A stretch of DNA of 64,000 bases from Chrysophaeum taylorii. Lineage: Eukaryota; Sar; Pelagophyceae; Pelagomonadales; Pelagomonadaceae. The notes beneath the pieces are model-generated. The model made no database searches and was not told the origin of the DNA. It saw nothing but the letters and a program-made list of their open reading frames with translations. Of the stretch, positions 11,335-53,290 are shown piece after piece. Within the stretch, counting starts at the first letter, position 1. Each line of letters begins with the position of its first letter. The DNA lies in the NCBI GenBank assembly GCA_029834535.1, contig JAQMWT010000025.1, positions 62,001 through 126,000 on the forward strand. The letters are read 5' to 3'. Made by a program: the position numbers and the translations under genes.

Positions 11335-11454
11335 GGTCGCGCAGTGGCAAGGGCACCAGAGACGATGCACTCCTGTAGCCTTCCAGTCCGAACCACTGAT
11401 AAGGAAAACAAGCACACGCGCATGCTGCACATGCCAGTCCTATAGTCGTCTCTA

Positions 11455-12035: not shown

Positions 12036-12043
12036 GAAATCAG

Positions 12044-13627
12044 CGAAGATACCGGTGGTTGCGCACACGCTCCGCGGACGATATGACTCGACCCTCCGAT
12101 TGATCAAGGCTTATTTGCCTGAAGCAGAATGGTCATCGTCGATGTGTATAGCGTCTCCACCCTGCGTTCATTCCGCACTCTGCAACTTGACATCCAGAGA
12201 TGTTGCAAGGGTGTTATGGCCACTAACTGGTCGATGAAGCTGTGCAAAATGGCTGGCTTCATTATGTGGCTGATCGAACAGGAGGCGTCCATTATTTCTT
12301 ATATAGCGCGCTTACACCCTTACGTGTACGTCGTCAATTTTCATGATACCACGCCCACTCTGATGAGCTCTCGCGTGCGATTGTTGGTTTCCAGTCACCC
12401 ACTGCACTTGCAAGAGGCTCCGAAGACATGTGTGAACATGCAACAAAAATTTGCTGCAGCTTTAGGTTATGCTCATGAACGCCACCTGCTCCAGCTGAAT
12501 AATCTTGGCTCCTCCCGAGAAGCAACAGATACAGCCTACACCGTTACGCGGGTTCCTCTTCGTTTGGGACCGCATCGCTCGGACACTCAGCCTTTGACTC
12601 TCGAGATGACGGCCGAGTTGCCTACGATGCCGGTGGACCATGATTGGGCTAGCTTGTCTAAGACAGACTCGTTCAAACATTTCGCGTCTGTCGTCCCTCC
12701 AGACACTCTTGCGATTTTAGCAGTCGATCTGCACAACTCCGTGACCAGAGGTTTCCGCCAAAGTGCCGAAGTCCTGCGGACCGCGTTGGGCCCGACAGAT
12801 CGATCCTTTGAGCAGTATTTGCGAATCTCCGACACCACCTTTCGTCACGTACAGATTCCGCTGTTAAATACGCGTACTCGTGTCGTTAAGTGGGTGTCAA
12901 AGGATGATCTCCAGGATCCCACTAAATGGGAACCGCCAGAAGTCCCTATGCTTCCGCTTCCAACAGATGCGCCGGGGACGGCTCATGCTTTTTCTGCTGG
13001 GCCACCCCGACAATCAAAAGTGGACGTTCCGCCGGATCCTGAACCTGAACAGGAGCCGAAAGTAAGGAGCGAGCCGAATGTGCGCGTCAAAGGTGAAAAG
13101 ATCAATAAGAGCCACCATGAGGTGAGGTTCAAATACGAAGAAAAGTTCGATGTGCCATGGAAGGATGCGCCGCGCGATGCGGACGGTGTACCGTTACCGC
13201 AGACTCCCGAGCACGTCAAGGACAATGATGCGATGAAAGTCGTAATTCCGACGAAGGAATATGTCGAAAAGGTTGTTCGAGATCGGGGAATTCCCGACAA
13301 CCCGCATCTGGACGATGATGCGAAGATGATGTTGAGCCACTGCGTGCAATACGCGTGGGCTTTCTTTGATCCGATTATGAGACCCGTGGACTCGCCACCA
13401 GTTTCTCTACGATTTAAAGACGCAAACCCACGACCGATCAAGATGACGCCTTATACGTTGACGCCAGCAAAGCTCGAGTGTCTCAGAAAGCAGATCACTG
13501 AGTGGTGTCGCGATGGAGTCATCCGACCGGCGAACTCTCCGTGGGGATTCCCTGTACTGATGCTGCCTAAGAAGGGAGCAGAGGCCGGGACGTCGAATGC
13601 TTTTCGTGCCGCAGTTGACTTGCGTCA
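12044..13627 (+). pseudogene. Ty3/gypsy fragment: methyltransferase-like domain to start of RT
   Basis: Homologous throughout to 48125-49720 of the full-length element below. It starts in a methyltransferase-like domain: I-A-S-P-P-C-V-H-S-A (P-P-C at 12157-12165), a frameshift near 12200, W-L-I-E-Q (about 12272) and L-M-S-S-R-V-R (about 12362). It continues through a shared linker (F-D-V-P-W-K-D-A-P-R-D, about 13146) into the N-terminal RT motif V-I-R-P-A-N-S-P-W-G-F-P-V (about 13520-13560). Homology stops abruptly at A-V-D-L-R (13627), exactly where RT proper should begin, so the 3' side is truncated. The 5' side abuts LINE copy A. The linker frame of about 500 codons is intact, suggesting moderate age. 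Confidence 0.8.
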
Positions 13628-14214
13628 GTCACGCAGTTGACACTGTATAGACATTCTAGGGGGGTCTGTCTATCGGTGTCTATGTACACTCATGCGTCAT
13701 CGATGGGAAAATGTCTATTTGACAACTGTGCAAGCTGTGAGTCCAGAGTAGTGCCGCTAAGCGTGGTCACTCATGGCAGCTGGTTATTTTGGTGCTCTCA
13801 AGGAGCTTGGTAGGTGCATTGCCATGGAATGTACGAGTGGACGTACCCAAAATATTCCATAACACGTGTGCAAGAGTACAGGTTAGGCAACTTACACACA
13901 CATCAACATTAACATGACAATACGATACTATGAACAGGTGCAGACAAGGTTACACGATCACGTGTGCAAAATATGCTATATACAGCCCAATGGTAATGGC
14001 GTTATATTAACAAGCGTGTTTGCGTGGCGAGGCTGGACCGGCGCGGTAACAGTCCAAAACCCATAGGTTACGTGCACGCGTTGACACATGGCTTCTCAGG
14101 GACCCGCCTGTGCCCATAACCTGCAGAGCATTTGGCATGCAGTGGTAAGTCACCTGGGAAACCATCCCGTCTCATCATGAGCGTCTGGAAGTATTTAATT
14201 CGGGGAATAAAAGG
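13628..14214. other. no recognised feature
   Basis: Moderately AT-rich sequence with no convincing ORF or repeat. It separates the gypsy fragment from LINE copy B. Confidence 0.4.
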
Positions 14215-18311: not shown

Positions 18312-18318
18312 TCCTATA

Positions 18319-18332
18319 GGATTAGGGTAAGG
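18319..18332 (-). promoter_or_regulatory. CCTTACCCTAATCC motif upstream of U-box gene
   Basis: Read on the minus strand, it ends 7 bp before the ATG. The same core is found upstream of several other genes here (54433, 54803, 24883, 63716) and inside the gypsy LTR. It resembles a telo-box and may mark the transcription start. Confidence 0.45.
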
Positions 18333-24895: not shown

Positions 24896-24962
24896 CTCCG
24901 GATTGTACGCCGAAACCCTCAGAGAGAGAGAGAGAGAGATGATGAGGCCGTAAGCGGTTACG

Positions 24963-27900
24963 ATGGAGGAAGCGCTTCGCGCGGAGGTTTCGCGACTGAA
25001 GACGGAGTTGCTAGGGGCGCGGGAGCGGGAGAGAGAGGCGCGGGACGCCGAGGCTGTGTTGCGGCAGAAGCTCGCGCGGTCCAAGGCGCAGTCGGTTGTG
25101 GACGTCGCGTCGCGAACCTGCGAGATGGCCGAGATCGCAGAGGGCGCGGTCTCGCGGCGCGAACGGTTCGAGGGACGGTGCGCCGAGCTGCTGGACCTCG
25201 TGACAGAACCCGGGAAGCCGGTTCCCGACCGGCTGCGGGGGCTGGTGCTGCGCGTGTTGGAGGAGAGGAGAGAGTTGGGGGAAACGAGGAGCGATCTGGA
25301 GAAATCTCACAAAGACGCGTCAGCTCTGAACGACGCGCTCCAAGGCGCGACCATCGAAATCGACGAGCTCCGGGGCGAGCGCGAGTCGGCGGTGGAGGCG
25401 GCGCGGGTCGAGAGAGACGCCGCGCTGACGGCGCACGCGGCGCGCGTCGACGAGCTGAGATGCTCCGAGTCGGCGAACCAAGCTCTGAGAGCGCACAACG
25501 ACGAGCTGAAACGACAGGTTGAGGAACTGGCGAGGGTGGGTACCAAGGCTGTGGAGGATAGGAGGACCCTGCAGGAAACGGCACGGCAGCTGGAGGCGTC
25601 GAACGCAGCGCTTAAATTGTGTCACGAAAGGAATACTGATCTCGAAGCTAAGGATACGGACGCTCGAATCGAAATCGCGGATCTAACGCGTCGCGTGGGC
25701 GGCGCCGAGGCGCGCCTCGAGGCGAGGAACGCGGAGTGCGAGAGAGCCGAACGGGAGACGAGGCGACTCGAGGAAGCCCTCGCCGCGAGCGAGGGACGAG
25801 CGCGAAGAAACGCGGACGAGCTTATTGCCGCGCGACGCCAACTCGAGGAAGCCGCGGCTTATCGCCGAAATTCTCTCGTCCAAGAAGAAAGGGCGAATTC
25901 AGATCTCGCGTTGCGGGTTGCCGAGCTCGCGGGCGTCGAAACGCAGCTCAAGGCGCGCGTCGAGGACACCCAAGCGCAGCTCAAAGATACGACCACGCGA
26001 CTAGATTCCTCGACCGATTCTCTCCTCGAATCTCGAGCCCAAAATGTCGAACTCGCCCGTCGCGCGGCTGCCCTCGAAGCGAAACTCTCCGAGTCGTTGA
26101 CCACGGAATCCCGGTGTGAAGCGAGATTCGAAGACTTGACGGTCAAATTGGACCAAACGACCGGCGAGCTCAGCATAACTCAAGTTCAGAACGCAGACCT
26201 CTCCCGCCAGCTCGAGGACGCCGACCGGCGCGTTCGAGACACCAAACAGAACCTCCTGGATTCGCGAGCTCGAAACCTCGACCTTTCGCGCCAACTGACG
26301 GAGATGGCGAAGGAACGAGACGAGGCGACGAAAGAGCTTGCGGCGGCACGGAGCGAGACGCTCCGACAGTCGCAGTCGCACGATCTAGAACTTTCGCGCA
26401 GCGTAGCGGACCTGGCTGGTGTCGCGACCAAGCTTGCTGAGGTCGAGAGAGAGCGAGACGAGGCGCAAAAAGAGCGAGACGAGGCGACGAGAGAGCTCGG
26501 GCTTTCGAACGACGCGCTGAGTGCGACGCAAGCGCACAACTCAGAACTGTTGCGCCAGGTTGAGGTGTTGAGAAGCGTCGAGGCGCAGCTAGACGAGGCG
26601 ACGAGAGAGCTTACGGCTGCACGGAGCGAGACGCTCCGACGGTCACAGTCGCACGATCTAGAACTTTCACGGAGGGTCGGTGAGCTGACCGGTGTCACGA
26701 CCAAGCTTGCTGAGGTCGAGAGAGAGCGCGATGAGGCGCAAAAAGAGCGAGATGAGACGGCCAAAGAGCTCGCGCTTTCGAACGACGCTCTGAGTGCGAC
26801 GCAAGCGCACAACGTCGAGCTAATGCGCCAGGTTGAGGTGTTGAGAAGCGTCGAGGCGCAGCTAGACGAGGCGACGAGAGAGCTTACGGCGGCACGGAGC
26901 GAGACGCTCCGGCAGTCGCAGTCGCACGATCTAGAACTTTCACGGAGGGTCGGTGAGCTGACCGGTGTCACGACCAAGCTTGCTGAGGTCGAGAGAGAGC
27001 GCGATGAGGCGCAAAAAGAGCGAGATGAGACGGCCAAAGAGCTCGGGCTTTCGAACGACGCGCTGAGTGCGACGCAAGCGCACAACTCAGAACTGTTGCG
27101 CCAGGTTGAGGTGTTGAGAAGCGTCGAGGCGCAGCTAGACGAGGCGACGAGAGAGCTTACGGCGGCACGGAGCGAGACGCTCCGGCAGTCGCAGTCGCAC
27201 GATCTAGAACTTTCACGGAGGGTCGGTGAGCTGACCGGTGTCACGACCAAGCTTGCTGAGGTCGAGAGAGAGCGCGATGAGGCGCAAAAAGAGCGAGATG
27301 AGACGGCCAAAGAGCTCGCGCTTTCGAACGACGCTCTGAGTGCGACGCAAGCGCACAACGTCGAGCTAATGCGCCAGGTTGAGGTGTTGAGAAGCGTCGA
27401 GGCGCAGCTAGACGAGGCGACGAGAGAGCTTACGGCGGCACGGAGCGAGACGCTCCGACGGTCACAGTCGCACGATCAAGAACTTTCACGGCGGGTCGCG
27501 GAGCTGTCAGATGCCAGAACGAAGCTCGTTGAGGTTGAGAGAGAGCGAGACGAGGCGAGGAGCGAGTTCGCGCTTTCGAACGACGCTCTCAGTGCGACGC
27601 AAGCGCACAATGTCGAGCTAATGCGCCAGGTTGAGGTGTTGAGAAGCGTCGAGGCGCAGCGAGAAGAGGCCACGAGAGAGCTTACGGCGGCACGGAGCGA
27701 GACGCTCCGGCAGTCGCAGTCGCACAATCTAGAACTTTCACGGAGGGTCGGTGAGCTGACCGGTGTCACGACCAAGCTTGCTGAGGTCGAGAGAGAGCGC
27801 GATGAGGCGACAAAAGAGCTCGGGCTTTCGAACGACGCGCTGAGTGCGACGCAAGCGCACAACTCAGAACTGTTGCGCCAGGTTGAGGAGCTCGAGGACA

Positions 27901-30704
27901 TCAAGGCGCAGCGAGACGAGGCGACGAGAGAGCTTACGGCGGCACGGAGCGAGACGGTCCGACGGTCACAGTCGCACAATCTAGAACTTTCACGCAGGGT
28001 CACCGAGCTCACCGGTGTCACGACCAAGCTTACGGAGGTTGAGGCACAACGAGACGAGAGGACCAAAGAGCTCGCGCTTTCGAACGACGCTCTGAGTGCG
28101 ACGCAAGCGCACAACTCAGAACTGTTGCGCCAGGTTGAGGAGCTCGAGGACATCAAGGCGCAGCGAGACGAGGCGACGAGACAGCTTACGGCGGCACGGA
28201 GCGAGACGGTCCGACGGTCACAGTCGCACAATCTAGAACTTTCACGCAGGGTCACCGAGCTCACCGGTGTCACGACCAAGCTTACGGAGGTTGAGGCACA
28301 ACGAGACGAGAGGACCAAAGAGCTCGCGCTTTCGAACGACGCTCTCAGTGCGACGCAAGCGCACAACTCAGAACTGTTGCGCCAGGTTGAGGAGCTCGAG
28401 GACATCAAGGCGCAGCGAGACGAGGCGACGAGAGAGCTTACGGCGGCACGGAACGAGACGCTCCGGCAGTCGCATTCGCACAATCTAGAACTTACACGCA
28501 GGATCACCGAGCTCACCGGTGTCACGACCAAGCTTACGGAGGTTGAGGCACAACGAGACGAGAGGACCAAAGAGCTCGCGCTTTCGAACGACGCTCTCAG
28601 TGCGACGCAAGCGCGCAACGCAGAACTGTTGCGCCAGGTTGAGGAGCTCGAGGACATCAAGGCGCAGCGAGACGAGGCGACGAGAGAGCTTACGGCGGCA
28701 CGGAGCGAGACGGTCCGACGGTCGCAGTCGCACAATCTAGAACTTTCACGCAGGGTCACCGAGCTTTCAGACGCCAGAACGAAGCTCGCCGAGGTCGAGA
28801 GAGAGCGAGACGAGGCGACGAGCGGACTCGCGATGTCGAACGACACTCTGAGCAGTAGCCAAGCCCAGCTGATGCGCCAAGTCGAGGAGGTCGAAGACAT
28901 CAAGGCGCAGCTCGGAGAAACAACGCGCCAGCTCGAGGCGGCGAGCCAGGCGCTCGAGCAGAAACGATCGCACAACCTAGAACTGACGCGGCGCGTGACA
29001 GAACTATCGAAGGCGACAACGAAGCTTACGGAGGTCGAGGCGCAACTGGACGAGACGACGGGCGAGCTGAGCATAAGCGAAGTCCAAAACTCCGAGCTTT
29101 CCCGACAAGTCGAAGATACCGAGGCGCGGCTGAAAGAGACAATGCAGCGGCTGGAAGCATCGCGCGAGGCATTCCGACAGACGCAGTCGCACAATATCGA
29201 ACTAACTCGGCGCGTTACCGAGCTGACGGGCGTCGCGACGAAGCTGAACGAGGTGAAGGGTCAATTAGACGCGGCCATGGGCGAGCTGCGGTTGAGCCGA
29301 GCGCAGACGACCGAGCTCTCCTGCCAGGTAGAAGACGGGGAGGCGGAGCTCGTAGAAACAAGACAAAAGCTCGCGGCGTCGAGCGAGACTCTGCGGCAGA
29401 CGGAGGCGCACAACCTCGAGCTCACTCGGCAGGTGACGGGCGTCGCGAGAAAGGTGGACGACGTAGAATCGCAACGAGACGAGGCGACGAAGGAGCTGAG
29501 GCGTTGCCAAGTCGAAAAGGCGGAGCTGTCGCGGCTGGTCCGAGGGTCGGACGAGGCGCTCCGGGCGACGCGAGGCGAGCTCGAAGCTTACGAGTCCAAG
29601 CTCTCGGAGAGTCGCGCGGAGGAAAGGAGATTGAGCGCGGCGCTGGGCGCGAGCGAGGTGGTGTACGAGGCGCGGGTCTCCGACGAGTTGAGCGAGAGCG
29701 CGCGAGCGGCGCACGCCGTGGACGTCGAGCGCGCGAAGTCCGAGCGGTTCGAGTCGCGGGCGTTGGAGGCGGAAAAGGCGTGCCGCGACGCGGAGGTGCG
29801 GTGGCGCGACGCCGAGGGCGAGCGCGCGCGCGCCGAGCTGCGCGCCTCGGCGGCCGAGGAGCGGCTGGACCTCGCCGAGCGACGGCTCGCGGCGGTGCGC
29901 GAGTCGAGACGCGCGGACCGGCGGCGGCTCGCGGCGGCCATCGAGGTCGTTCCGGTCCCTAAAGTGTCCGTGCTGTCCACCCCGTTCCGGGCGAACTTCG
30001 AGAACATCCTCGTCCCGAAGAAGAAAAAAAACGAGGTGGTGCCCGTCGTCGGCGGCGTAATAAAGGTGTGCGAGGACGACGACGTCGACGTCGAGAAAGA
30101 GATAGTAAGAGAAGCCGTGGACGCGGCGGCGCTCGCGGTCGCCGAACACCTGAGCCGCGAGTTTGTCGGGTGGCACTGCGAGGCGCTGGAGCGCATAGCC
30201 GCCGTCGCGCGCAAAGGTCGTAGCAGGAGTAGCGCGAAAGAATTGAACTTGCTCGCGACAAAAATTTCTGCATCGTACGCCTACAAGAGGCACCTCGAGC
30301 AGGAGCTCGAGGCGGCCAGGGACGCGCTGGCCGCGACGCGCGCCGAAAACGAAGCTCGGCTCGCTGTCCTTCGACGAAAATTTGAGTTGGATCTTTTTGA
30401 CTACGAGACGCAACTAAAAAAAGCGTTAGCGCTCTCGAAATCCGAGGCAGACGCGGCCCGCGACGAGGTCGTCGAGGCGCGGGCGCAGAACGCGCGATTC
30501 GCCGCGGACCTCAACGACAAAACCCGCGAGTGCAAGCGCCTCCAAAACGAGCTCGCCGCCGTCGTCGAGGCGGCCCACCAGTCCCTCGCCGCCCCTACAA
30601 AAAAATCCCCGAGGGAGCGGGACCTCGAGTCGAACCTCGCGACGCTCGCCAAGCTCAACGCGGACCTCGTTAAAAAGTGCGAAAGGCTTATGCTTCTTCA
30701 CTAA
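24963..30704 (+). CDS. giant coiled-coil protein with tandem repeats, 1913 aa
   Basis: One uninterrupted ATG-to-stop frame. Residues about 1-510 are non-repetitive heptad-rich coiled coil. Residues about 514-1290 (DNA 26502-28832) form a tandem array with unit boundary L-S-N-D-A-L-S-A-T-Q. Steps between units are 273 bp three times, then 252 bp five times; the short unit lacks a 7-residue insert (A-Q-K-E-R-D-E). Units are almost identical, implying recent expansion or gene conversion. Residues about 1290-1650 are diverged coiled coil. The C-terminal 260 residues are different: a basic patch (P-K-K-K-K-N-E), an acidic patch and a conserved-looking helical domain. Such proteins typically scaffold centrosomes, flagellar rootlets or Golgi. 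The exact role is unknown. It ends 11 bp before the stop of the convergent AMPK beta gene. Confidence 0.9.
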   Translation: MEEALRAEVSRLKTELLGAREREREARDAEAVLRQKLARSKAQSVVDVASRTCEMAEIAEGAVSRRERFEGRCAELLDLVTEPGKPVPDRLRGLVLRVLEERRELGETRSDLEKSHKDASALNDALQGATIEIDELRGERESAVEAARVERDAALTAHAARVDELRCSESANQALRAHNDELKRQVEELARVGTKAVEDRRTLQETARQLEASNAALKLCHERNTDLEAKDTDARIEIADLTRRVGGAEARLEARNAECERAERETRRLEEALAASEGRARRNADELIAARRQLEEAAAYRRNSLVQEERANSDLALRVAELAGVETQLKARVEDTQAQLKDTTTRLDSSTDSLLESRAQNVELARRAAALEAKLSESLTTESRCEARFEDLTVKLDQTTGELSITQVQNADLSRQLEDADRRVRDTKQNLLDSRARNLDLSRQLTEMAKERDEATKELAAARSETLRQSQSHDLELSRSVADLAGVATKLAEVERERDEAQKERDEATRELGLSNDALSATQAHNSELLRQVEVLRSVEAQLDEATRELTAARSETLRRSQSHDLELSRRVGELTGVTTKLAEVERERDEAQKERDETAKELALSNDALSATQAHNVELMRQVEVLRSVEAQLDEATRELTAARSETLRQSQSHDLELSRRVGELTGVTTKLAEVERERDEAQKERDETAKELGLSNDALSATQAHNSELLRQVEVLRSVEAQLDEATRELTAARSETLRQSQSHDLELSRRVGELTGVTTKLAEVERERDEAQKERDETAKELALSNDALSATQAHNVELMRQVEVLRSVEAQLDEATRELTAARSETLRRSQSHDQELSRRVAELSDARTKLVEVERERDEARSEFALSNDALSATQAHNVELMRQVEVLRSVEAQREEATRELTAARSETLRQSQSHNLELSRRVGELTGVTTKLAEVERERDEATKELGLSNDALSATQAHNSELLRQVEELEDIKAQRDEATRELTAARSETVRRSQSHNLELSRRVTELTGVTTKLTEVEAQRDERTKELALSNDALSATQAHNSELLRQVEELEDIKAQRDEATRQLTAARSETVRRSQSHNLELSRRVTELTGVTTKLTEVEAQRDERTKELALSNDALSATQAHNSELLRQVEELEDIKAQRDEATRELTAARNETLRQSHSHNLELTRRITELTGVTTKLTEVEAQRDERTKELALSNDALSATQARNAELLRQVEELEDIKAQRDEATRELTAARSETVRRSQSHNLELSRRVTELSDARTKLAEVERERDEATSGLAMSNDTLSSSQAQLMRQVEEVEDIKAQLGETTRQLEAASQALEQKRSHNLELTRRVTELSKATTKLTEVEAQLDETTGELSISEVQNSELSRQVEDTEARLKETMQRLEASREAFRQTQSHNIELTRRVTELTGVATKLNEVKGQLDAAMGELRLSRAQTTELSCQVEDGEAELVETRQKLAASSETLRQTEAHNLELTRQVTGVARKVDDVESQRDEATKELRRCQVEKAELSRLVRGSDEALRATRGELEAYESKLSESRAEERRLSAALGASEVVYEARVSDELSESARAAHAVDVERAKSERFESRALEAEKACRDAEVRWRDAEGERARAELRASAAEERLDLAERRLAAVRESRRADRRRLAAAIEVVPVPKVSVLSTPFRANFENILVPKKKKNEVVPVVGGVIKVCEDDDVDVEKEIVREAVDAAALAVAEHLSREFVGWHCEALERIAAVARKGRSRSSAKELNLLATKISASYAYKRHLEQELEAARDALAATRAENEARLAVLRRKFELDLFDYETQLKKALALSKSEADAARDEVVEARAQNARFAADLNDKTRECKRLQNELAAVVEAAHQSLAAPTKKSPRERDLESNLATLAKLNADLVKKCERLMLLH
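26502..28832 (+). repeat. in-frame tandem array, 273-bp then 252-bp units
   Basis: The phrase ctttcgaacgacgc recurs at 26502, 26775, 27048, 27321, 27573, 27825, 28077, 28329 and 28581. The first three steps are exactly 273 bp and the remaining five exactly 252 bp. All are multiples of three. Confidence 0.95.
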
Positions 30705-35155: not shown

Positions 35156-35908
35156 CTACAGGAGGGTGGTGGCTGTGGTGGTGGGTCTGGCTGTAGGGAC
35201 TGGCGAGGTCGCCGCGAGGAGCTGGAGGATTTCATCCTGGGAGAGAGAGACGTTGTAGATGACCAAGTCGGCCATCGTGCCAGTGAACCAGACATTCACG
35301 ATGAATTGGGCGTCGATGTCGGCGTAGCCAATGTAAAAGTCCGTTGGGTCCCCGCCGCCCGTGTCGAGCTCGACATAGCCCGACGCCATAACGACGCCGT
35401 CGACGTAGCTCGTCGAGATGTTGTTCTGGTCGTAAGTGGAACAATAGAAATGCCATTCTCCGGTCACCGGAAATGGCGTCTGCCCGTCGATGTCGCAGAC
35501 TTCCCAGAACTGGAGGCGGAAGATTTCCGTGCCATTGAGCGTCCTGAGTCCGTACTGTTCGCACACCGCTCGATTCCCGTAAGTGTGGAGAGCGCCGTCG
35601 TCGAAGGCTTCAACATTCGCATGTACGCAAATGCTTCTCTCCGCGCCCCCCGATATGCTGGCGGTCACTTCGGGGGGACACACGAAATAGTCGCCATCGC
35701 CGTCGAAATATGTCGCGCCGCCGTCGACGCCGTTGTAGTCGACTGCAGCGGAAGGATCGTTCGTCGAATTGTCGCCAAAAGTAGGTCCGAGGTCGCAGTC
35801 AAAACCGCCGAGGACGTCGATCCCGTTGCCGTCCAGCGGATAGTACGCGAGCGGCACCTGCGCGACGACCGCCACCAAAGCCCCCGCCGCAAAGAACAGA
35901 AATCGCAT
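35156..35908 (-). CDS. secreted LamG-like (concanavalin-A fold) protein, 250 aa
   Basis: Single exon starting at an ATG whose first base is 35908. Residues 1-16 are a signal peptide (M-R-F-L-F-F-A-A-G-A-L-V-A-V-V-A). The mature part opens with A-Y-Y-P-L-D-G-N-G, the standard start of a LamG/laminin-G-3 jellyroll, and continues with W-H-F-Y-C-S-T-Y-D, Y-V-D-G-V and F-Y-I-G-Y-A, ending G-T-M-A-D-L-V-I-Y-N-V-S-L-S, all typical of the fold. There are four N-glycosylation sequons. The C-terminal 20 residues are Thr/Pro-rich. Such domains bind carbohydrate or surface ligands; specific ligand unknown. Confidence 0.88.
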   Translation of the reverse strand: MRFLFFAAGALVAVVAQVPLAYYPLDGNGIDVLGGFDCDLGPTFGDNSTNDPSAAVDYNGVDGGATYFDGDGDYFVCPPEVTASISGGAERSICVHANVEAFDDGALHTYGNRAVCEQYGLRTLNGTEIFRLQFWEVCDIDGQTPFPVTGEWHFYCSTYDQNNISTSYVDGVVMASGYVELDTGGGDPTDFYIGYADIDAQFIVNVWFTGTMADLVIYNVSLSQDEILQLLAATSPVPTARPTTTATTLL

Positions 35909-42419: not shown

Positions 42420-42732
42420 TGTGGCGGTAACCCTTACTTACACCGCCATCCTTACCCCTAGTTCTATCGAGTTCTCTACCCCACTTCTACTTCCAACCCC
42501 TGACGCACGTATTGCAACGCTACCAGGCGCCTCCCTCTTTCTTTCAAATCGACTAATCTCAACCATAAATCATCATTTCACGAGTCTTCGGATTGAAGCT
42601 CGTGGGCAGTTTGAAGAAGTTTGATCGACAGGAAGGAAGCGCTCCTCAACCCGCTCGGCACCCTCGAGACGTCGAGGACACGGTCGAAGCAGGGTAAGAA
42701 GTCAGCGCGCATAATCCTCTTTCCTGCCGCAG
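42420..42732 (+). repeat. 5' LTR of the gypsy element
   Basis: Begins tgtggcggtaacccttac and ends cctgccgca(g), so TG...CA ends are present. It matches the 3' LTR except for scattered substitutions and a 13-14 bp insertion in the other copy. It contains ccatccttacccc at 42446-42458, very similar to the motif upstream of host genes. Confidence 0.9.
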
Positions 42733-43225: not shown

Positions 43226-45569
43226 ATGCCGAAGCGGCGCATCATACGAGAGAAAGACGTCCCCCGCGACGCCGGGAGAGAAGGGGCGGAAGAAAAAGAG
43301 ACCCCGCCGACGCAGCCACCCGCGCCGGCGCCGGCCGCCGCACACGAGCCAGGCCGAGAAACCGAAAGACCGGCAGAAGCCGAAGAGAGAAAAGACGAAG
43401 AGTCGACGGGCGAGCAGCCGAGCGCCCCGGCCACGACTCGAACCGAACCCGCCGATGAGCGCGCCGTCGAAGGCTCCCGAGCAGTTCGCGAGCTGCGGGC
43501 GATGGTATCGTTGCTCCAAGACCAGATGCAGCAGCGCAATCGGCAAGATGAAGAAGTGCGAAGCCTGCTGCGAGAGCGGATCCGAATACAAGATGAGGAG
43601 AGTCGAAAGCAAGCGCAAGAGCGCGAGGAGGAGCGCGATCGGTTTGCAAACCGAGAGATACAGAAGCAGGCGCAAGAGCGCGACGAAGAACGCAGCTTGA
43701 TCGCCCAAGAAATCGCGGCGCAGATCGAAGAGGCGGCGACGGCTCGACTCGAAACCGCGACCCGTGAGGAGAAGGAGGCCCTTCAGAACGAGCTCCGACG
43801 CGCTCGCGAGGACGCGCAGCACGCTCGCGAAGCTGCAGCGACCGAAATCCAACATCTTCGGGAGGAGATGCGCTCGCTCAAGACGCGTCGAGAGCAGCGA
43901 GCGCAACCACCGCGACCCGAATCACCTCGCCCGACTCGAACCACGACGAATCCGACTCCGAGCCGCCGAGCAGCGAACCGCCGGTCCGACGCGCGGAGCA
44001 AGCGAATCGTCCGCGAGCCCACGAGGAAGAGAAGGAACCCACGGAAGCCGACAAGATCGTCGCCGCACTGGTGAGAGCCGCCACGGGCCGAGGGCTATCC
44101 ACCGCCGCCCTGGCCTCCCGAAGATACGAGGACGCGGCTGCCCCGAGGCACCGACGTCTCAAGCTGGAGATGATCAAGCTGGACATCGAGGGCAAAGACC
44201 AGCGGCAGTTCGATCACGAGGCCGCCCTCATCGTCGGAGAGTTGTCGAAGGACCACTATTCTATTAGCTCGCTGTCGTTTGGCGTCGCGGACGACGTGCG
44301 CCAGGCCGTGCTACCTACTACGTTGGAGGAAGGGCGAATGGCGGCCGAGGCACTGTGTACCTCGTTCGGCCACCCCGAGTCGTTCTATCTGCAATTCCAC
44401 GCCGACAGCCAGACGCCGTACAAGGAACAGATCCGACAGCTTCGCGACACGAACCTCTCCCACGTCCAGCGGATCCTCCGGCAGCTCCGCCAAGCCTGCC
44501 GAACCGCGCCTCGACCGGAGGAAGCCTTCCACAAGGTCCGGAACATCACGCAGGCCACCACGCCGAAGAAGGAGGGCGAATCTTGGGTCCTGACCTACCT
44601 CAAGTCGCTGCAGAAGGAGGCTACGGCCTATACAGCGTTGACGGGAACGTCGATGGATAGCATCGAGATGATTCACTCACCAAATGAATGACCGCCGGAC
44701 TGGCATCGACGAAGCTGCAACAAAAGATTCATATGGGGCGGTGCGATCAGCCTAGATTACAGTACAACACCTTCGCAGATGTACAAAGTCTAATCCTCCG
44801 GCACGAGATCCAGCTTTTCAACGCGTGGCAGAAGGCACACCCCGGCAAGACCACCAACCCGCCGCCATGCGACCCGCGCGACCGCAAGAAACCCGGCGCC
44901 TACGCGACGCAACAGGAAGAGCCAGAGGTAGACGATGATCCGAGGCCCAGTATGCGAAACAAGGACACATGGACGCAGAAGATGAGCAACCGCGGAAACT
45001 ACAAGATCGACCATACGCGAAACGCGGATGGTTCCCTCCGATGCCCGCGCCCGAACGCGTACAAGCAAGCGATGAAAGCGCGGCGACGGCAGGGACAAGA
45101 ACCCATCCTTTACGGAGCCTGGAAGAGAGAACAGAAAGTAGCACGACCCAACGGCGACCGACGACCGCCCGCGAATGCGAACGCCACCGCCTCGCCGGGT
45201 ACTGGCATGGTGCAGGTCAACCAGGTCGAAGCGATCGTCGAGCGCATGCTCGCAGCGCGAAACTCCTCGAGCTCGAGTACGCAATCCTCGATGGACTACG
45301 CGGGGTCTTTCTTTGGGCTTCAATCGAGGGACGGAACCGCCGGATGCTCCCTCGCCGACGCCACGCCCCTCGGGTCGGCCAGCAGCACCGACGGAGAGTT
45401 TTTTGGAGCCCTGCGGCCGGTCTCCGTGCCCCCGGTGACACCACCGAAAATGCCGGGCCCCCCGAAGCGGACGTCGATTTGGAGCAAACGGTCGACCCGC
45501 GCTCGCTCGCCCCCCAGGTGCCCGATGCCGATCAGCCAGATCCCGGGGAGAACGCGCGATCGCTTCTAG
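43226..45569 (+). pseudogene. gag-like region (coiled coil plus capsid-like part)
   Basis: First ATG at 43226 (M-P-K-R-R). Residues 1-110 are charged and Pro-rich; about 130-260 form a long coiled coil rich in E-R-D-E-E-R. The frame then has to shift by -1 near 43910 (an S-P-D-S-N-H-D-E-S-D acidic frame continues) to reach the next open stretch ending at 44691. That stretch and the following one (ATG at 44688 overlapping the TGA at 44689) look like the capsid region: Y-N-T-F-A-D-V-Q-S-L-I-L-R-H-E at about 44763-44810. No CCHC zinc knuckle was found. Two -1 steps could be decay or recoding. Confidence 0.65.
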
Positions 45570-46680
45570 TTGAGTCGACCCTCCGAAACGCCGCCGACCT
45601 CGAGCGGAAACTGTACGAGTCGAAATATCCTCGGTCGCCAGCGACACCTCCGAAACTTCGAGTTCGCACGCCCGAGAGGATGTTGCCAGTCGAATCAGCG
45701 GCGCCACCACGCACGTCCCGCACGAATCGGACACGGACGTCTCCGGCCTCATCGAGGACACGTCCAACAGCGACGACGACTCCGACTCGAGCACGGACGC
45801 GACCAATGAGCACTCGTGCGACTCCGACAGTGATAGTAGTGACCGCGACAAAGACTCCGACCCCGACGCGAACCGAACGGGATCACCGGAGGCAAATTCG
45901 CGCGACGATGAAGAACTCCCCGACCTCATCGACGATGACACCGATTTGGACAGCGACAGTTCGGACGAACGCGAAAGTCAACCCGGAGAGTTGTTCCAAG
46001 CCTTAGTCAGTCATCCGCACGGACCCAAAACCGCCAAGGCAATAACAGATGCCCTTCTCCAAGCTTCTGCGAACCCGCGCCGACAAAAAAAAACCTGCGG
46101 ATGCGGTCGGCTACGTGCCCGACCGAAACGACCACGACGCCACCGGCAGCACAACCGACAACGATATCATCCCCGATTCAACGTCGACGGCGACGCCGCA
46201 CTCTCCCCCAAGGGGGTACCCGCCGCGGACACGGCCGCGATATTGGCAGCGGAAACAGCGAGTCGCCACCAGTCGGAAACAGCGAGTCGCCACCAGTTGA
46301 GGAACCGATCACGCCGGAAGAACCTGAAGGATCGGACAAAGCAGCCGAAACCGACAGGGATCCCTCGCGCGGAGCTCGAGAAGAGACAAGCCTCGAGGAA
46401 GTTCCCGGCTCGAGAACACCCCGCGTGCGGCAAAGGAGGAGCGCCAGATTGAGAACTCCGCGCCGAGTGTTGGGGATACGGACGAGAATCCAGCAACTCT
46501 GGAACAAAAAGAGTCCAGAGCGCACCCGAATCCCTGATTCGAGAGCGCGAAGAAAGAGGCCGGGGATTGCAGCGAGGAGAATCCAGGAGCTACCCGCCGA
46601 CCCGCGAACGCACCGACAGAACTGGTGGTCGAGAGCCCGCCGTCTCGTCGCGGGACGCGCGCACGTATCGATGCCGATGG
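45570..46680 (+). pseudogene. acidic linker between gag and protease
   Basis: In one frame (about 45715-46080) the sequence is rich in Asp and Ser (D-T-S-N-S-D-D-D-S-D-S-S), ending G-E-L-F-Q-A-L-V-S-H-P. A 21-bp direct repeat (gagtcgccaccagtcggaaac/gagtcgccaccagtt) occurs at about 46260-46300. No domain recognised. Confidence 0.4.
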
Positions 46681-47200
46681 CAGGGACAGAGGACGACGCG
46701 ATGTGCATGCACTCATCGTTCAACGCCGAAACGATCGACAGAGACCTGCGCGTCCTCAACTGCTTGGAAGCCGGCTTCCTAACGTTCGTGCCCATCCATA
46801 TATTCGACAAAACGGGCAAATCATCGTCTGCCACGGTGATTGGGGTGGACGGAATGGCCGACGTCACCTACATCTGTCGCGACCTCGCCCGCCTAATGAG
46901 GAAGCGAGGCATGTTACTGGACAGCGGCAAGCTGCCTTTCGAGCGCACGCTCTTCGGATCGGGAAAGAACGCGTCCTCGATTTCTGAGTGGATCGCCCTG
47001 CGAATATCCGTATCGGACGAAATGGCCGTGCCGGTCGTCGCCATCGTGGTACACACACTTTCTGCTGGGAGCCCGCGACATTCGAGCCTTGGGCGCCGTT
47101 GTCGATTACCCCCGAGACCGAATTTCCTTTTTGCGAACCCAAACACAGTCTTCCAGATGATGAAGCTACCGCACGCAGGGAAGATTGTTCGGTCACCCGC
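46680..47200 (+). pseudogene. retropepsin-like aspartic protease domain
   Basis: The segment V-I-G-V-D-G-M-A-D-V-T-Y-I (about 46837-46875) aligns with the retropepsin active site V-D-T-G-A-D-V-S-x-I, but the D-[ST]-G tripeptide is D-G-M here. After a frameshift near 47050, F-L-L-G-A-R-D-I-R-A-L-G-A-V-V-D-Y (about 47057-47107) matches the C-terminal I-L-G-x-D-x-L-x-x-x-x-x-x-I-D-Y motif. Retropepsins process Gag-Pol. The altered catalytic triplet and the frameshift argue that this copy is inactive. Confidence 0.6.
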
Positions 47201-47930
47201 CATTCTCTTTCGGGCAGCCTACGAAGCACACCCCGTCGTAGCGCCAATTTACGGGTTCCGGGGGCAAGCGCTGCGCAGAGTCGGAGTCAAGGTGGCGAGA
47301 GAGCTCTTCCACCCCTACTCACGGCAGAGGAACTCCTCTCGCCGCCTCCTCAGCGGGCGTCGGCCGCCATCACCTTATAGCCGAGGACCCATCTATGCCG
47401 AGCAACGACCCGAAAACGTCCGCGCCCGAGATCCGAGCGTTCGCAACCGGCTCCCTGCGCATCGACCCCGGTCGAACCCACAACATCCCGGTCAAGCGCT
47501 GAGCCAAGCGCTCAAGCCCGGAGAAGCCTTCGTCGCCACCGCGCCAAGCGTGGAGCACCTCGGCGTCGTCGCCGGAACCTGCTCGACACATGACCGCTCC
47601 GACCCGGCCGCGGTGGCCATGTCGTCGATGGACGACACGCCGATGTCGATCCTCCCAGGTCAAGAGCTTGCACGAGGGGAAATCGTCAACTGCCAAGAAG
47701 AAGTTCAGGTGACAACCCCGCGGCCAAGCGCCGACCCTGGAAACTCACATGAAAGCGAGCACGAGGGCACGGCCTCCTTCACGGTCTCGGTCACCAGTGA
47801 TCCAACTCCAGACCCCGGAGAAACAGACGGCCAAGCATTTCGAACGTCTTCAGTCAAGCCGCGCCTGCAAGGCTCGCAGGCGCAAGAACCGCCGAAGTCC
47901 CGGCCTGCCGAACAAGCGATCATCGACAAG

Positions 47931-48560
47931 CACCAGGCGCTCTATTGGATCCCGGAGAACGTGACGCCCGTCGTGATGTTCTTCGGCGGGATTGGAGGGG
48001 GCACCCAGGGTATCTACCGGAGCAATGAATGGTTCGGAACCGCGTATAAATAAGGTCGTGCTCGTCATCGACGCATCCGACACACCGCCAAATAAATCAA
48101 TGAGAGAAATTTTCCAGAAATACCCGTCGTCCAGCACACCCTCGGCGGTCGGTACGACAGGGTCCTTTCTCTGGTCAAAGGTTACCTGCATGAAAGCCTA
48201 TGGCCCACGGCACTTTTCGTTGGCACGCCCCCATGCGTCGATTCCGCCTTGTGCAACCTTACGGCCCGCGACGCCGGGAAAGGAGTCTCCGCGACCAATT
48301 GGACCATCAAGCTCTTCCAGCTCTCCGGAGTAGGACGCTGGATCATCGAGCACGCACCTTCCATCCGCTCGAAAATCACGCTGAGGCAAGGTTTCATCAC
48401 CGTCGTCGACTTATGGACGACGACGACGCCGGACCTCATGAGCACCCGTCGGCGCATGATCATCACGAGCTGGCATCTTCAGCTCATCCGACGTCCCAAA
48501 ACGTGCGGCACTATTCAAGATACCTTCGCCGCCAAACTCGGACTCGACCCTGCGCAGCCT
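47931..48560 (+). pseudogene. C5 cytosine methyltransferase-like domain inside the gypsy pol
   Basis: Four ordered motifs. Motif I: M-F-F-G-G-I-G-G-G-T-Q-G-I (F-F-G-G-I-G-G-G at 47979-48002), matching D-L-F-x-G-I-G-G of the SAM site. A motif II-like V-V-L-V-I-D-A-S-D follows in the +1 frame (about 48055-48082). Motif IV: F-V-G-T-P-P-C-V-D-S-A, with the candidate catalytic Cys at 48234-48236. Motif VI: W-I-I-E-H-A-P (48339-48359; usually E-N-V). Motif VIII-like: L-M-S-T-R-R-R-M-I-I-T. Two frame changes lie between 48050 and 48125. The copy at 12044 keeps P-P-C, W-L-I-E and S-S-R-V-R. Such enzymes methylate C5 of cytosine in DNA; activity of this copy is unlikely given the frame breaks. Confidence 0.7.
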
Positions 48561-49516
48561 ATCATCCAGCGCAGCAACTATGGATGGATGCACGCGAGAG
48601 GCCACGGTACCGATAATACACCATCACGCGGAACGGGGTACGAACGGGGCGCCTTCGGACACCAAAGCACTCAAACTAGAGGTGCTTGCGGAGGCTCTCA
48701 CAATGCCGAGCGATCTCGCATGGGGTAACCTCGCAGTCACGGACCGAATGAAGCATCTAGCTGCCGTGATACCCCCGTCTTCCATGGCGTACATAGTCCT
48801 CGACGCACACAACGCGCTCCCGCCCACGCTCCGCAACATCGGAATGGCGCGCCCGAACGTAGTCGTACCCACCGACAAACCCTCCGAAACATACATCATC
48901 GAGCGCGCCCGCTCCGACCGCGCCCGCGTTGGAGCCACCGCACCCGAGCCCCGAAGCGCCCTTGTGAACGTTTCGACTCGCGCAATTCACTGGGTGCCGA
49001 ACCGCGACCTCCAGGATAAAGCGAAATGGCAACCGCCGGACCTTCCTTTAACCCCTCCGAAGCCCGTTGCATCAGGGACGACGCACTCATCTTCCCAAGG
49101 GGGTACCCGCGCGAGCAAAAACGATGCAACCTCGAAAGGCGAACCAAGGGACGGAAAACTAACCAAGGAACCAACGAGCGACAAGACCAAAGAGCCCGCC
49201 GCCCGGTTCAAATACGAGGAATGGTTTGACGTGCCATGGAAAAACGCACCCCGGGACGACGACGGCGCACCGCTACCGCAACAGCCCAACCATCTGAAAG
49301 GGAACGAGGCCATGGTTCACCCCACGAAAGAAGAGGTGGACAAGGCCGTCGACGAGCTAGGGGCATCCCGAACAACCCGCACCTGGACGAAGATGCCAAA
49401 CTCATGTTGGCGCACCGCGTTCGATACTCCCGGGCGTTCTTCGATCCCGTCATGAGACCTGTGGATTCTGACCGGTATCCCTCCGATTCAAAGACGCGGA
49501 CCCAAAACCCATCAAG
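48561..49516 (+). pseudogene. linker between methyltransferase-like domain and RT
   Basis: Open frame from about 48580 to 49370, homologous to the linker at 12580-13440 (shared F-K-Y-E-E-x-F-D-V-P-W-K and A-P-R-D). It may include a methyltransferase target-recognition part at its start (A-V-I-P-P-S-S-M-A-Y-I-V-L-D-A-H), but I cannot assign it. Frame lost near 49350. Confidence 0.5.
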
Positions 49517-50395
49517 ATGTCGCCGTACCGCCTCGCTCCAGCCAAGATCGAATGCCTTCGACAGCAGATCGCCGAATGGCGCCGAGACGGAGTCGTAAGA
49601 CCTGCCAACTCCCCTCGGGGGTTCCCGATCTTCATGCTTCCGAAGAAAGGGGCAGAGCTCGGGACATCTAACGCTCCCCGCGCGGCCGTCGACTTACGTC
49701 CGCTCAACGATCAGTTGGTTGCAGACAGAGGGCCGAACCCGCCGCAAGAGGACGCCCTAGCGTTCCTGGTCGGACGAAGGTTTCCGGACCTCGATCGACA
49801 TTCGGTGGGGGTACCACAACCTTCGACTGGACCCGCAGGCACAGGACGCCGTGACGATGGACAGCCCGCTCGGAGCCCACAGCTTTCTCCGAGACTGCCC
49901 TTGGGAGTGAAGACCGCGGGAGCCCTCTTCTGCAGGCAGATGACAGCCGACCTCGCGAAATGGACGTACCGCGACCTGGTCAGCTTCATCGACGACATCA
50001 TCATAGGAACGAATAACGTCCACGATCATTTGCAGTGCCTGATCGAAGTCCTCTCCCACTTGGCCTCCAAAGGATACAGTGGCCAGACAGCCAAATTCCA
50101 CTTGCTCCAAGACGAAATCGAGTTCCTTGGTCATATCTCAACCCCCGACGGATTGAAGCCTAACCCCAAAATGTCGGAAGCACCACGAAAGATGCCGATT
50201 CCTGGGACGCTGAAGAAAACCTCCCCGAAGACGCAAATCCGTTCGTTCATCGGGATGAGCAACTACGGCCGGAGATACATCAAGGACTATTCAAAGATCG
50301 CGGACCCCTTGCGACGCCTGACGTTGGAGGAAGTGCCGTTCAAATGGACGCCAGAGTGTGCCAATAGGCGTGGGACACCATCATCGACGCACTAG
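49517..50395 (+). pseudogene. Ty3/gypsy reverse transcriptase
   Basis: V-V-R-P-A-N-S-P-R-G-F-P-I-F (about 49590-49632) and A-V-D-L-R-P-L-N are the N-terminal RT motifs. The first catalytic Asp region, D-I-R-W-G-Y-H-N-L-R-L-D (about 49800-49835), lies in another frame, with two frame changes. Then L-P-L-G-V-K-T-A-G-A-L-F (about 49900) and the catalytic box F-I-D-D-I-I-I-G (49987-50010; Y/F-x-D-D), followed by F-L-G-H and the S-F-I-G-M-S-N-Y-Y-type thumb motif. A stop ends the frame at 50395 just before RNase H. Confidence 0.85.
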
Positions 50396-50928
50396 CGGAT
50401 TCCCGCGGAGTGTACCATCCGGATTACGACCTCCCCTTCCACATCAGGACCGATGCCTCCAAAGACGGTCTCGGAACTTATCTCTTCCGAATCGTCGAAG
50501 TCCAGGACGACAAGGGTCACACCGGTCGCGAAGAACGAGTTATCGAGTACTGGAGCCGAGCGGTGCCCAAAGAGATGCGTAATTACGAGCCGCGCCGTCT
50601 GGAGCTCCTGGGAGTGATCCTGTCCCTCGAACACTTCCGCCCGTTCATCGAAGGCCGCCGAACCGTCCTCGAAACCGACCACCGGAATCTGACATTCCTC
50701 CAGAACACGACCCACTCCACCGGACAGCTCGCCCGATGGGCAATGCGGCTGGCCAATTTCGACCCCGAACTCGGTTATAAGCCCGGCAAGTCCCCGAGGA
50801 TGAGCATCCCCGACTGCCTCTCGAGGAATGGGATCGACCATATCATCGAGACCGACGAATTCGGAGACCCGCTCAATCACGCGTACTTGGTCGTGCAAGA
50901 GCTGCCGCTCCCCGACGGCGAAGCCTGA
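50396..50928 (+). pseudogene. gypsy RNase H domain
   Basis: F-H-I-R-T-D-A-S-K-D-G-L-G (catalytic Asp, about 50440-50478), R-R-L-E-L-L-G-V-I-L (Glu, about 50596-50625) and L-E-T-D-H-R-N-L-T-F-L (Asp, about 50670-50702) are the canonical RNase H residues. The domain itself is in one clean frame ending with TGA at 50926-50928. Confidence 0.85.
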
Positions 50929-50939
50929 TGTCACGTCAT

Positions 50940-52759
50940 CCTCAACTTGATGCAGACCGAGATACCCGAGGACCTCGAAGACCCTCCGGATGATCCGATG
51001 GGTTACGCCGCATCGCACGCCGCGCAACATCGCAAGAAAGTGGCCCTGCGGTCGCGCAAGCCACCGTTTCAAACCGACGTCGGGCTACAGAAGGAATTCA
51101 TCGACAAAATCCCTGACAACATCTCACTGGAAGAGATTGCTGAAGCCCAAAAGGATGACCCTCTACGGGATAGTATCCGCACCGGGGATGAACCAAAGCG
51201 ATGCTCGCCGCCGATTCGGAGCCAACGTCCGATATGATGTATGGAAGGGAGTTTTGTACCGGTACGACATCGACCTCCGCCCTCTGATCGTCGCGCCCGC
51301 AACCTTGCGAGAGAGGATCATGCGCATCCACCACAGTTCGCCCCTGGGAGGACATCTCGGACGCGATAGCACCGTCAACGCGATCGCCGAACGGTTCTGG
51401 TGGCCGCGCATGTCCCACCAGGCTGGAGTCTTCGCCAACGAATGCCTAGTTTGCCAAAAATCGCGACGAACCCCGGAGCCAAAGCGAAAAGGGATGCTCC
51501 AGCAGCCGATATACGACGGAGACGGCGCCGTTCTGTGCACGGACCTTTTCGGACCTCTGCCGAGCGCCGGCAAGTCCACGTACATCCTCGTGATGTTCGA
51601 CCCGTTCTCGCACTACTATCTGGTCTTGGACGTCATAAGCACCAAGTACGCCGAAGCCATCTTAGAATCCTTCGTGCGAAACATCCTCCTTCAGGGATTT
51701 ATTTCTCCCGCGTATGATCCTCACCGACAATGGTCGCGAGTTCGTCAACCGGTTGCTACGGGCCTTCCTCGTAGAGTTCGACGTCCGGTACAGAACGACG
51801 ATACCGTACCACGCCCAAGCGAACCCCGCGGAGCGAGTCAATCGGTTCCTCAAGGCATTCCTCCGAGCCTGCCTCGAAGGTCGCAGCGTCACCGACTGGC
51901 CGGCCTTCGTCCGGTACGTGTCGTTCTGCTACAACCGAAAGTTCATCCCCGGCACGCAAATCTCCCCGTTCGTGTTGCGTCTGAACCGGCAGCCGATGTT
52001 GCCCACGGACTACACCTTGTTGGTTCAGCCCGATCCTGTTCTGCCGCGACACCGATCCGACGCCCTCCTGGAGATCAAGCAAAACTTCCAGTATTACTCG
52101 AAAGGTCGTCGCGGAAGCACACGAGCAGGCCAAGAAGACGCACAAGCTCGCGTACGACGCCGATAACATCGATGTCGAATACAACGTCGAATCGCGCGTG
52201 CTGCTGTACATTCCGCAGTCCCAAAACCAATTTCGGACCGGAGTGGCGCGGTCCCTTTCTCATAACCGAGCGCCTTTCGCCCGTCTCGTACAAGATCCGA
52301 TCTGTTTACGGAGCCGCCGAGGAGCGAATCGTATCGGTCCAACAGATCACCCCAGTATCGATGCCTCCCGCACTCGACGCCACGATTCGTCGTCCGAGCC
52401 CCGGATTCCGCGACGAGTACGAGCGCGGCAAGCTCGTCATTTTCCGAATCCCGTCGGCCCGAGACCCCGATTGGCGCAAGAAGCTCTACGTCGCCGAGGT
52501 TTTCGAAGACTATGATGATCTTCAAGACCGAGTCGCCCTCCACTTTTACTCCGACCTGGGCTCGCGCGACGACCCATCGTATTTCGACCCGACCTCCCTC
52601 AGCTTGAGTGTGTCGCACGCCGAGCCCGGAATTCAAGACGGCACTCGGTCGCGGCTTCACTCGCACCGAGAAACTAACACCTCAGTGCACTCCTTGCGTA
52701 ACCGACTTCGCCCCGGACGAGATCGACGTCCTGGTTCCCCGGTTCAAGCTCCAGGGTAA
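50940..52759 (+). pseudogene. gypsy integrase with C-terminal extension
   Basis: The zinc-binding H-H/C-C domain is visible (I-H-H-S-S-P-L-G-G-H-L-G, then C-L-V-C-Q-K-S, about 51325-51465). Catalytic Asp 1 is in C-T-D-L-F-G-P-L-P (about 51536). A frameshift near 51705 leads to I-L-T-D-N-G-R-E-F (Asp 2, about 51715-51743) and P-A-E-R-V-N-R-F (Glu, about 51826-51849). Two more frame changes follow (about 52090 and 52220) before G-P-F-L-I-T-E-R. The C-terminal tail (about 52430-52600) reads L-V-I-F-R-I-P, W-R-K-K-L-Y-V-A-E-V and V-A-L-H-F-Y, a beta-rich region that might bind chromatin; not a clear chromodomain. Confidence 0.85.
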
Positions 52760-52963: not shown

Positions 52964-53290
52964 TGTGGCGGTAACCCTTACTTACACCGCCATCCTTACC
53001 CCTAGTTCTCTCAAGTTCTCTACCCCACTTCCCGTTTACTGGACTCTACTTCAACCCCTGACGCACGTATTGCAACGCCACCAGGCGCTTCCCTCTTTCT
53101 TTCAAATCGACTAATCTCAACCACAAATAATCATTTCACGAGTCTTCGGATTGAAGCTCGTGGGCAGTTTGAAGAAGTTTGATCGACAGGAAGGAAGCGC
53201 TCCTCAACCCGCTCGGCACCCTCGAGACGTCGAGGACACAGTCGAAGCAGGGTAAGAAGTCAGCGCGCATAATCCTCTTTCCTGCCGCAG
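52964..53290 (+). repeat. 3' LTR of the gypsy element
   Basis: Direct repeat of the 5' LTR, preceded by the purine tract aaagcagggggg-tcc. It carries an extra 13-14 bp (cccgtttactggac) near 53030. Confidence 0.9.

Follow-up and report, generated by a model that had tools for sequence, protein, structure and literature searches.

The locus raises the question of whether a long terminal repeat (LTR) retrotransposon of the Ty3/gypsy type encodes, as part of its own polyprotein, a C5 cytosine-methyltransferase-like domain. The element has a size of ~10.9 kb and is located in a stretch of 64,000 nucleotides of Chrysophaeum taylorii (the window; C25:62001-126000), which belongs to a eukaryotic assembly of 70.8 Mb in 697 contigs. 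A sequence-only reading had placed such a domain at 47931..48560, between protease and reverse transcriptase (RT). We give a probability of roughly 0.7 to the reading that a C5-methyltransferase domain was captured by the Ty3/gypsy polyprotein and has, as proposed here, a role in modifying cDNA. Sequence comparisons show homology over motifs I-IV, a position upstream of the RT, retention of the catalytic Cys, the motif VI Glu and the RxR of motif VIII, and purifying selection.

Motifs I, II, IV, VI and VIII, named by the earlier reading, were all found at the claimed site (Table 1), including the FxGxG(G) of the S-adenosylmethionine (SAM)-binding motif I and the PPC of motif IV with the catalytic Cys. 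The claimed start holds but the domain continues to ~48795, and the motifs lie not in a single reading frame but in those of four different open reading frames (ORFs) between 45939 and 49455. Because the motifs sit in alternating frames, the window copy is broken; it is dead, a pseudogene in the methyltransferase region.

The domain was found as one continuous open stretch in many other copies. A search with the window's 210-aa piece as query, evaluated for the 150 scored of 688 candidates and therefore a lower bound, revealed at least 150 family matches, 23 with 78-100% identity and 127 with 40-49%, with a gap between the two groups; the longest open frames listed among the family matches reach 3067 aa. 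The 23 near matches include the window copy as well as its probable allele on contig C521, where the same stretch is found at a nearly equal offset with 100% identity to the query. Both haplotypes are probably present in the assembly and, therefore, copy counts may be doubled. C25 and C521 also share a light-harvesting gene at nearly equal offsets. Eighteen of the other 21 near matches (L011-L028) and 40 of the 127 far matches were examined; by best-scoring query, these 58 loci fell into clade A (that of the window, 18 loci), clade B (28) and clade C (12). Since copies were sampled by similarity to the window, decayed copies are under-represented. The domain is located upstream of the RT in the window and in the one copy opened per clade.

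In an alignment of 21 complete copies from the three clades, 97 of 305 columns were invariant, among them F32, G34 and G37 of motif I, D60 of motif II, P112-P113-C114 of motif IV, E152 of motif VI and R184 and R186 of motif VIII. Thus, 10 of 11 C5-methyltransferase landmarks, which were picked after the alignment was seen, are invariant (hypergeometric P = 6e-5 against the 97/305 columns). Since the frame is open in many copies and 10 of 11 landmarks are invariant, the resemblance is above chance. In the 58 other loci, PPC was intact in 53, the Cys and the motif VI Glu in 56 each, R184 in 57, R186 in 58 and D60 in 52, one of the six D60 misses (L016) being possibly a frame effect; an absence of conservation at PPC and Glu, which would have spoken against the sequence-only reading, was thus not observed.

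The C5-METHYLTRANSFERASE question was addressed by profile. With PF00145, copies of clades B and C (3/3) scored 26.7, 26.9 and 23.4 bits over residues 27-83, above the gathering score of 22, and NCBIfam dcm matched the same three copies with E-values of 0.001-0.01, far below its cut-off, and did not match the clade A copy. The alignment of the 21 copies was compared by hhalign with nine C5-methyltransferases, comprising eight phage and plasmid enzymes (of eleven retrieved) and L001, a stand-alone enzyme of the same genome; the probability amounted to 96.1% (E 3e-9) over 251 columns, with motifs I to X in order, while 30 column shuffles gave at most 1.1%, the reversed alignment 0.1% and 30 shuffles of the clade A set at most 1.3%. 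Sequence searches of the PDB revealed DNMT2 as the two best matches (human first, E 0.03), with the register kept over motifs I-II, and the other methyltransferases listed (3g7u; 4h0n) are also C5 enzymes. Foldseek of predicted models listed C5 enzymes in 49/50 and 50/50 rows when viral-contig enzymes were in the alignment (mean pLDDT 45.9); for a model without these, C5 enzymes made up 7 of the top 10 structures, with no match at E <= 0.001, and in such lists the absence of a family carries no meaning. Like DNMT2, DNMT1, M.HhaI and M.HaeIII, the domain has the catalytic Cys and Glu, the motif order and, as modelled, a putative class I methyltransferase fold; unlike these, it is without the full motifs known in C5-methyltransferases as ENV, QxRxR and GN, and identity in the structure-match rows is 11-19%. 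Protein searches, which need shared 5-residue words and similar length and by which absence is unproven, gave no relatives at E <= 0.001, neither with alignment A2 (best 7,995 candidates by shared words) nor with a domain-restricted 1165-aa piece of L014 (1,818 candidates); no relative was found among 79 pattern stretches in a viral-contig search with A2.

Several results weigh against this assignment. PF00145 gave no match for the clade A copy (1/1) nor for the broken window pieces, so that the PF00145 check suggested earlier turned out positive for clades B and C and negative for clade A. The hhalign probability dropped to 79.8% for clade A alone and to 53.1% when L001 was also left out; for the full set it stayed at 95.2% without L001, but then spanned motifs I-IV only, and with 22 viral-contig enzymes as reference it was 43.6% (E 2.4e-4). 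The C-terminal half alone reached 24.3, in the correct place, compared with a maximum of 21.3 in 40 shuffles, and motifs VI-X are weak by profile. As read from the alignment, none of the 21 copies retains the Asn-Val of ENV, the motif VIII Gln or the Gly-Asn of motif X. The remaining 9/12 and 4/7 rows of the PDB searches were unrelated proteins with E >= 0.3, and the model built without foreign enzymes reached only a Rossmann-like fold. Further, landmark conservation in the 58 loci is near the per-position average of 95% and, therefore, the conservation argument rests on the comparison between clades. There, A-C identity is 49% in the domain but 82% in the RT and 86% in the RNase H (one copy per clade); in the 200 aa preceding the domain it is 30% (one copy per clade, with one stop in the clade A stretch). 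Taken together, the domain nevertheless descends almost certainly from C5-methyltransferases, whereby clade A is called a descendant because of its 49-50% identity with B and C and not because of its own PF00145 score. The claim of a C5 cytosine-methyltransferase-like domain upstream of the RT is thus supported by PF00145, profile comparison and conserved residues.

Next to descent, maintenance was determined from the ratio of nonsynonymous to synonymous substitutions (dN/dS, method NG86) in the 21 copies, and since all of these are open-frame copies the values are biased downward. The medians were 0.20 in clade A (10 pairs), 0.24 in B (36) and 0.19 in C (21). Between B and C the median was 0.057 at a dS of ~2 (62/63 pairs finite); A versus B was saturated (0/45 finite) and A versus C nearly so (4/35 finite). 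Because dN/dS is low but identity between clades is lower than in RT and RNase H, the domain is, by these comparisons, under purifying selection and kept less strictly than the RT.

The reading we prefer would run as follows. In a red-plastid alga, a Ty3/gypsy lineage would have acquired a C5-methyltransferase domain in the distant past and retained it in a polyprotein of the order Gag-like, protease-like, methyltransferase, RT, RNase H and integrase. The domain would be produced together with the rest of Pol, enter the particle, bind SAM and methylate nucleic acid of the element, most likely new cDNA before or at integration. Such a modification may help the copy through host surveillance of foreign or unmodified DNA, and would be a transient mark rather than a lasting CG methylation that silences genomic copies. 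The domain is probably still enzymatically active and, given activity, cDNA is slightly favoured as the substrate. The replaced residues of ENV, motif VIII and motif X, and a constraint far below that on the RT, would also be expected if the fold was retained but methylation lost, leaving a SAM-binding, nucleic-acid-binding or structural piece of the polyprotein; we consider this unlikely, albeit the strongest competitor, since the Cys, the motif VI Glu, the RxR and the PP of motif IV are invariant in the 21 copies even though half of the positions differ between A and the other two clades. That a generic Rossmann-like domain resembles the motifs by coincidence agrees with the fold reached without foreign enzymes but is very improbable, because B and C pass a curated cut-off, shuffled and reversed profiles fail and the catalytic residues are kept.

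The sequence-only reading had the element methylate its own genomic copies to lie low, by self-silencing or camouflage. This fits the enzyme class, and an apparent host C5-methyltransferase gene (L002, see below) is present, but pairwise transitions between the Ty3 copies and the observed/expected CpG ratio gave no clear mutation signature of lasting CG methylation. The CpG/non-CpG transition rate ratio was 1.09, 1.13 and 0.76 in clades A, B and C at all sites and 1.31, 1.19 and 0.94 at third positions; CpG observed/expected amounted to 1.04-1.32 in the domains and 1.29 in the window element, compared with 1.25 in the whole window. A trace of CG methylation could be hidden by efficient repair, recent insertion or non-CG methylation; as it stands, its absence argues against a durable CG methylation of these copies and makes self-silencing, which we regard as improbable, less likely than a transient mark, an RNA or non-CG target, or lost activity. 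Somewhat less probable still is a DNMT2-like RNA cytosine methyltransferase acting on the RNA of the element or its primer tRNA: DNMT2 is the best sequence match among solved structures and among the top folds of the models, the missing CpG trace is in line with an RNA target, and RNA methylation was raised for SymbioLINE-Dnmt by de Mendoza and colleagues in 2018 (PMC5890265), but DNMT2 cannot be told from DNMT1 or bacterial enzymes at an E-value of 0.03 and with Z scores that lie 1-2 apart.

A search for other METHYLTRANSFERASES in the genome revealed 57 PF00145 matches, nine of which were examined (L001, L002, L003-L008 and L074 on C582). L001 (C634:8824-9801) is a stand-alone C5-methyltransferase of 360 aa that covers nearly the whole PF00145 profile; with light-harvesting exons nearby on C634, it is no obvious contaminant. 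In L002, a C5-methyltransferase domain (PF00145 7.9e-18) forms part of a long open frame, apparently a host gene, which we take to be DNMT5-like by its motifs. The seven others have a common second domain with AGGLHQEGF, CEINPTMRARAQ, FTLPCQHLS and IVENVPP, in which ENV is kept in most copies and which belongs to copia-type loci (Table 1). In L074, a protease-like LIDGGAS was seen upstream and an integrase-like stretch downstream (both by eye); on C120, an rve match (E 0.09, below cut-off) in L069 is followed further downstream on the same strand by RVT_2 (1.2e-40) in L084, and by this order and strand both parts would form one Ty1/copia-type element. Two copia-type ORFs were scanned with PF00145 and passed with 38.6 and 34 bits, and the median dN/dS of this domain was 0.14 over 21 pairs at a mean dS of 0.61. 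A protein search with a copia-type ORF, likewise dependent on shared 5-residue words and similar length, gave no relative at E <= 0.001 among 273 candidates. By hhalign (eight rows, with L004 and L069 representing the same copy) the copia domain matched the reference enzymes with 97.5% but the Ty3 domain with 0.7%. Since both domains match the references (96-97%) but not one another, the comparison points to two separate captures and gives no support to a common origin, short of a remote one. We tentatively propose, at slightly less than even odds, that Ty3/gypsy and Ty1/copia elements of one alga independently took up different C5-methyltransferases after the protease region, both kept by selection to modify their own cDNA, the Ty3 enzyme being of an orphan class that lies beyond PF00145 in one clade with its catalytic residues kept.

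The window element itself has the LTRs and the order of RT, RNase H and integrase of Ty3/gypsy elements. The LTRs differ by 8 substitutions over 312 aligned bases plus 14 gap positions (Jukes-Cantor distance 0.026), and a target-site duplication was not seen in the inspected LTR flanks. Pfam scans of the Gag-like pieces 43768-44688 and 44688-45566 gave nothing above cut-off, and neither the window pieces nor a further scan gave a Pfam match in the protease-like region; the core rve domain, below its cut-off in the window, was found above it in sister copy L071. The placement between protease and RT therefore holds on the RT side, whereas on the other side the protease was recognised by eye only. 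A protease-like region precedes the domain in L071, L072 and the window; the stretches in the two sister copies are GVDGMADVSYI and LGAVVDYPHDRI / FGAIVDYPRNRI, and LGAVVDYPxDRI is a second protease-like motif, also recognised by eye. The active-site motif of retropepsins is usually D-T/S-G-A; inspection by eye gave D-G-M-A in one copy of each clade (window, A; L072, B; L071, C). Overlapping frames in L071 and L072 prompted the idea that a programmed frameshift links the methyltransferase ORF to the RT ORF; it was rejected since the frames of these two copies part at different points (by eye) and, in L070, domain and RT share a single open frame. A second, partial copy in the window is without motifs I and II.

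Table 1 Features of the Ty3/gypsy element and related loci (window positions unless a contig is given).
Feature	Position	Strand	Basis or remark
5' LTR (TG...CA), 312 bp	42420..42731	+	direct repeat
Gag-like region, several frames	43768..46740	+	position only (ORFs)
Retropepsin-like region	46839..47130	+	by eye; IGVDGMADVTYICRD at 46839-46883, LLGARDIRALGAVVDYPRDRISF at 47062-47130 in a different frame
C5 cytosine-methyltransferase-like domain, several frame changes	47931..48795	+	motif places; domain in sister copies
Motif I (SAM binding) VVMFFGGIGGGTQG	47970..48011	+	frame of ORF 45939-48053
Motif II strand VLVIDASDT	48058..48084	+	frame of ORF 47977-48333
Motif IV FVGTPPCV with catalytic Cys	48216..48239	+	frame of ORF 48096-48728
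Motif VI WIIEHAPS	48339..48362	+	frame of ORF 48096-48728; Glu kept, Asn-Val of ENV replaced
Motif VIII MSTRRRMII	48438..48464	+	frame of ORF 48096-48728; RxR kept, Gln lost
Motif IX/X-like LKLEVLAEALTMPSDLAW and RMKHLAAVIPPSSMAYI	48670..48723, 48745..48795	+	frame of ORF 48460-49455; Gly-Asn of motif X lost; weak
Reverse transcriptase	49472..50392	+	Pfam RVT_1, 1e-10; SFIDDIII at 49982-50005
Ty3-type RNase H	50368..50925	+	Pfam RT_RNaseH, 3.7e-25
Integrase	51209..52162	+	Pfam; H2C2 zinc finger 4.9e-17, core rve 0.04 (below cut-off)
3' LTR (TG...CA), 326 bp	52964..53289	+	direct repeat; purine run AGCAGGGGGG just before
Second copy, partial, nearest clade B	12043..13640	+	sequence comparison; from stretch before motif IV (IASPPCVHS 12148-12174) to motif X, then RT start
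Copia-type locus L069	C120:36000-45900		methyltransferase domain after protease-like motif, before integrase-like/RVT_2 stretches
Copia-type locus L074	C582:13500-23400		as L069
Copia-type locus L084	C120:31500-36100		as L069

Elsewhere in the window, a copia fragment (2025-3742) matched RVT_2 with 2.7e-37; its RT (2025-2888) shares just 32% identity with that found near the copia methyltransferase domain, and a methyltransferase is thus not demonstrated for this fragment. A 1916-aa open frame at 24954-30704 has long internal repeats, is coiled-coil-like by eye and shows a strong purine skew on the plus strand. Genes on the minus strand at 7846-11436, 17457-18347 and 35156-35908 encode CHAT, U-box plus leucine-rich repeat, and laminin-G-like domains. 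An Rfam scan of the window gave no match.

That a Gypsy element can acquire a C5-methyltransferase was already published in 2018. In what follows, published work is represented by parts of the papers cited. KnitGypsy-Dnmt3 of Klebsormidium nitens is a C5-methyltransferase that an LTR element of the Gypsy type encodes within its Pol ORF, with Ka/Ks < 0.2 and key residues kept; in yeast it produced no methylation, a result reported as inconclusive, and the repeat structure of KnitGypsy is described as DIRS-like (PMC5890265). The element described here is similar in its C5-methyltransferase in Gypsy Pol, its purifying selection and its kept key residues, but differs in its host (red-plastid instead of charophyte), in its ordinary LTRs, and in a very divergent domain, of which the clade A copy escapes PF00145 and to which a Dnmt3 label is not assigned here. 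SymbioDIRS-Dnmt3 and SymbioLINE-Dnmt of Symbiodinium are high-copy retrotransposon-borne C5-methyltransferases; the SymbioDIRS enzymes methylate CG de novo in yeast, and packaging with the RT and cDNA methylation were proposed by de Mendoza and colleagues (PMC5890265). Unlike the element found here, these are DIRS and LINE elements, the DIRS enzyme grouping with Dnmt3 and the LINE enzyme being an orphan lineage. Orphan eukaryotic DNMTs are described as C5-methyltransferases that are confined to particular lineages and poorly placed, with some borne by transposable elements; in the part of this account used here no Ty3/Ty1 element of such an alga is described, and its mention of 'LTR Copia' cites the 2018 work, which says Gypsy (PMC12344493). 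The Dam-like methyltransferases that PMC5890265 mentions for DIRS elements and the methyltransferase gene of the Ectocarpus Sola1 transposon (PMC12477816) are likewise borne by mobile elements but are N6-adenine or N6-adenine/N4-cytosine and not C5 enzymes. Dam- and Dcm-encoding Ty3 and DIRS elements were reported broadly, in stramenopiles among others (PMC6338049). For ochrophytes and haptophytes, the open-licence literature gave no report of a C5-methyltransferase in a Ty3 or copia element, as far as the parts used here go, including PMC9998398, and 'methyl' is absent from the main text on Tisochrysis transposable elements (PMC5963040).

Light-harvesting proteins account for 84 matches in the genome, a count that includes exon pieces and possible second haplotypes; we read these as fucoxanthin/red-lineage type, and such a host fits the earlier suggestion of another lineage. 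We know of no earlier Ty1/copia element that carries a C5-methyltransferase. Host lineage, domain divergence and the copia case appear to be new within the open-licence literature.

In sum, a divergent, selectively maintained relative of cytosine-methylating enzymes appears to be carried inside retrotransposon polyproteins of an alga, and similar captures are described in a few other lineages. That retrotransposons carry a host-type silencing enzyme is a paradox. If the reading is true, the retention of such domains by two LTR superfamilies of a single compact genome, in many copies of close similarity and with no CpG trace among the Ty3 copies, would make action on cDNA in the particle and action on chromatin distinguishable by experiment, and would suggest that methyltransferase capture is a recurrent strategy rather than an oddity of two lineages.
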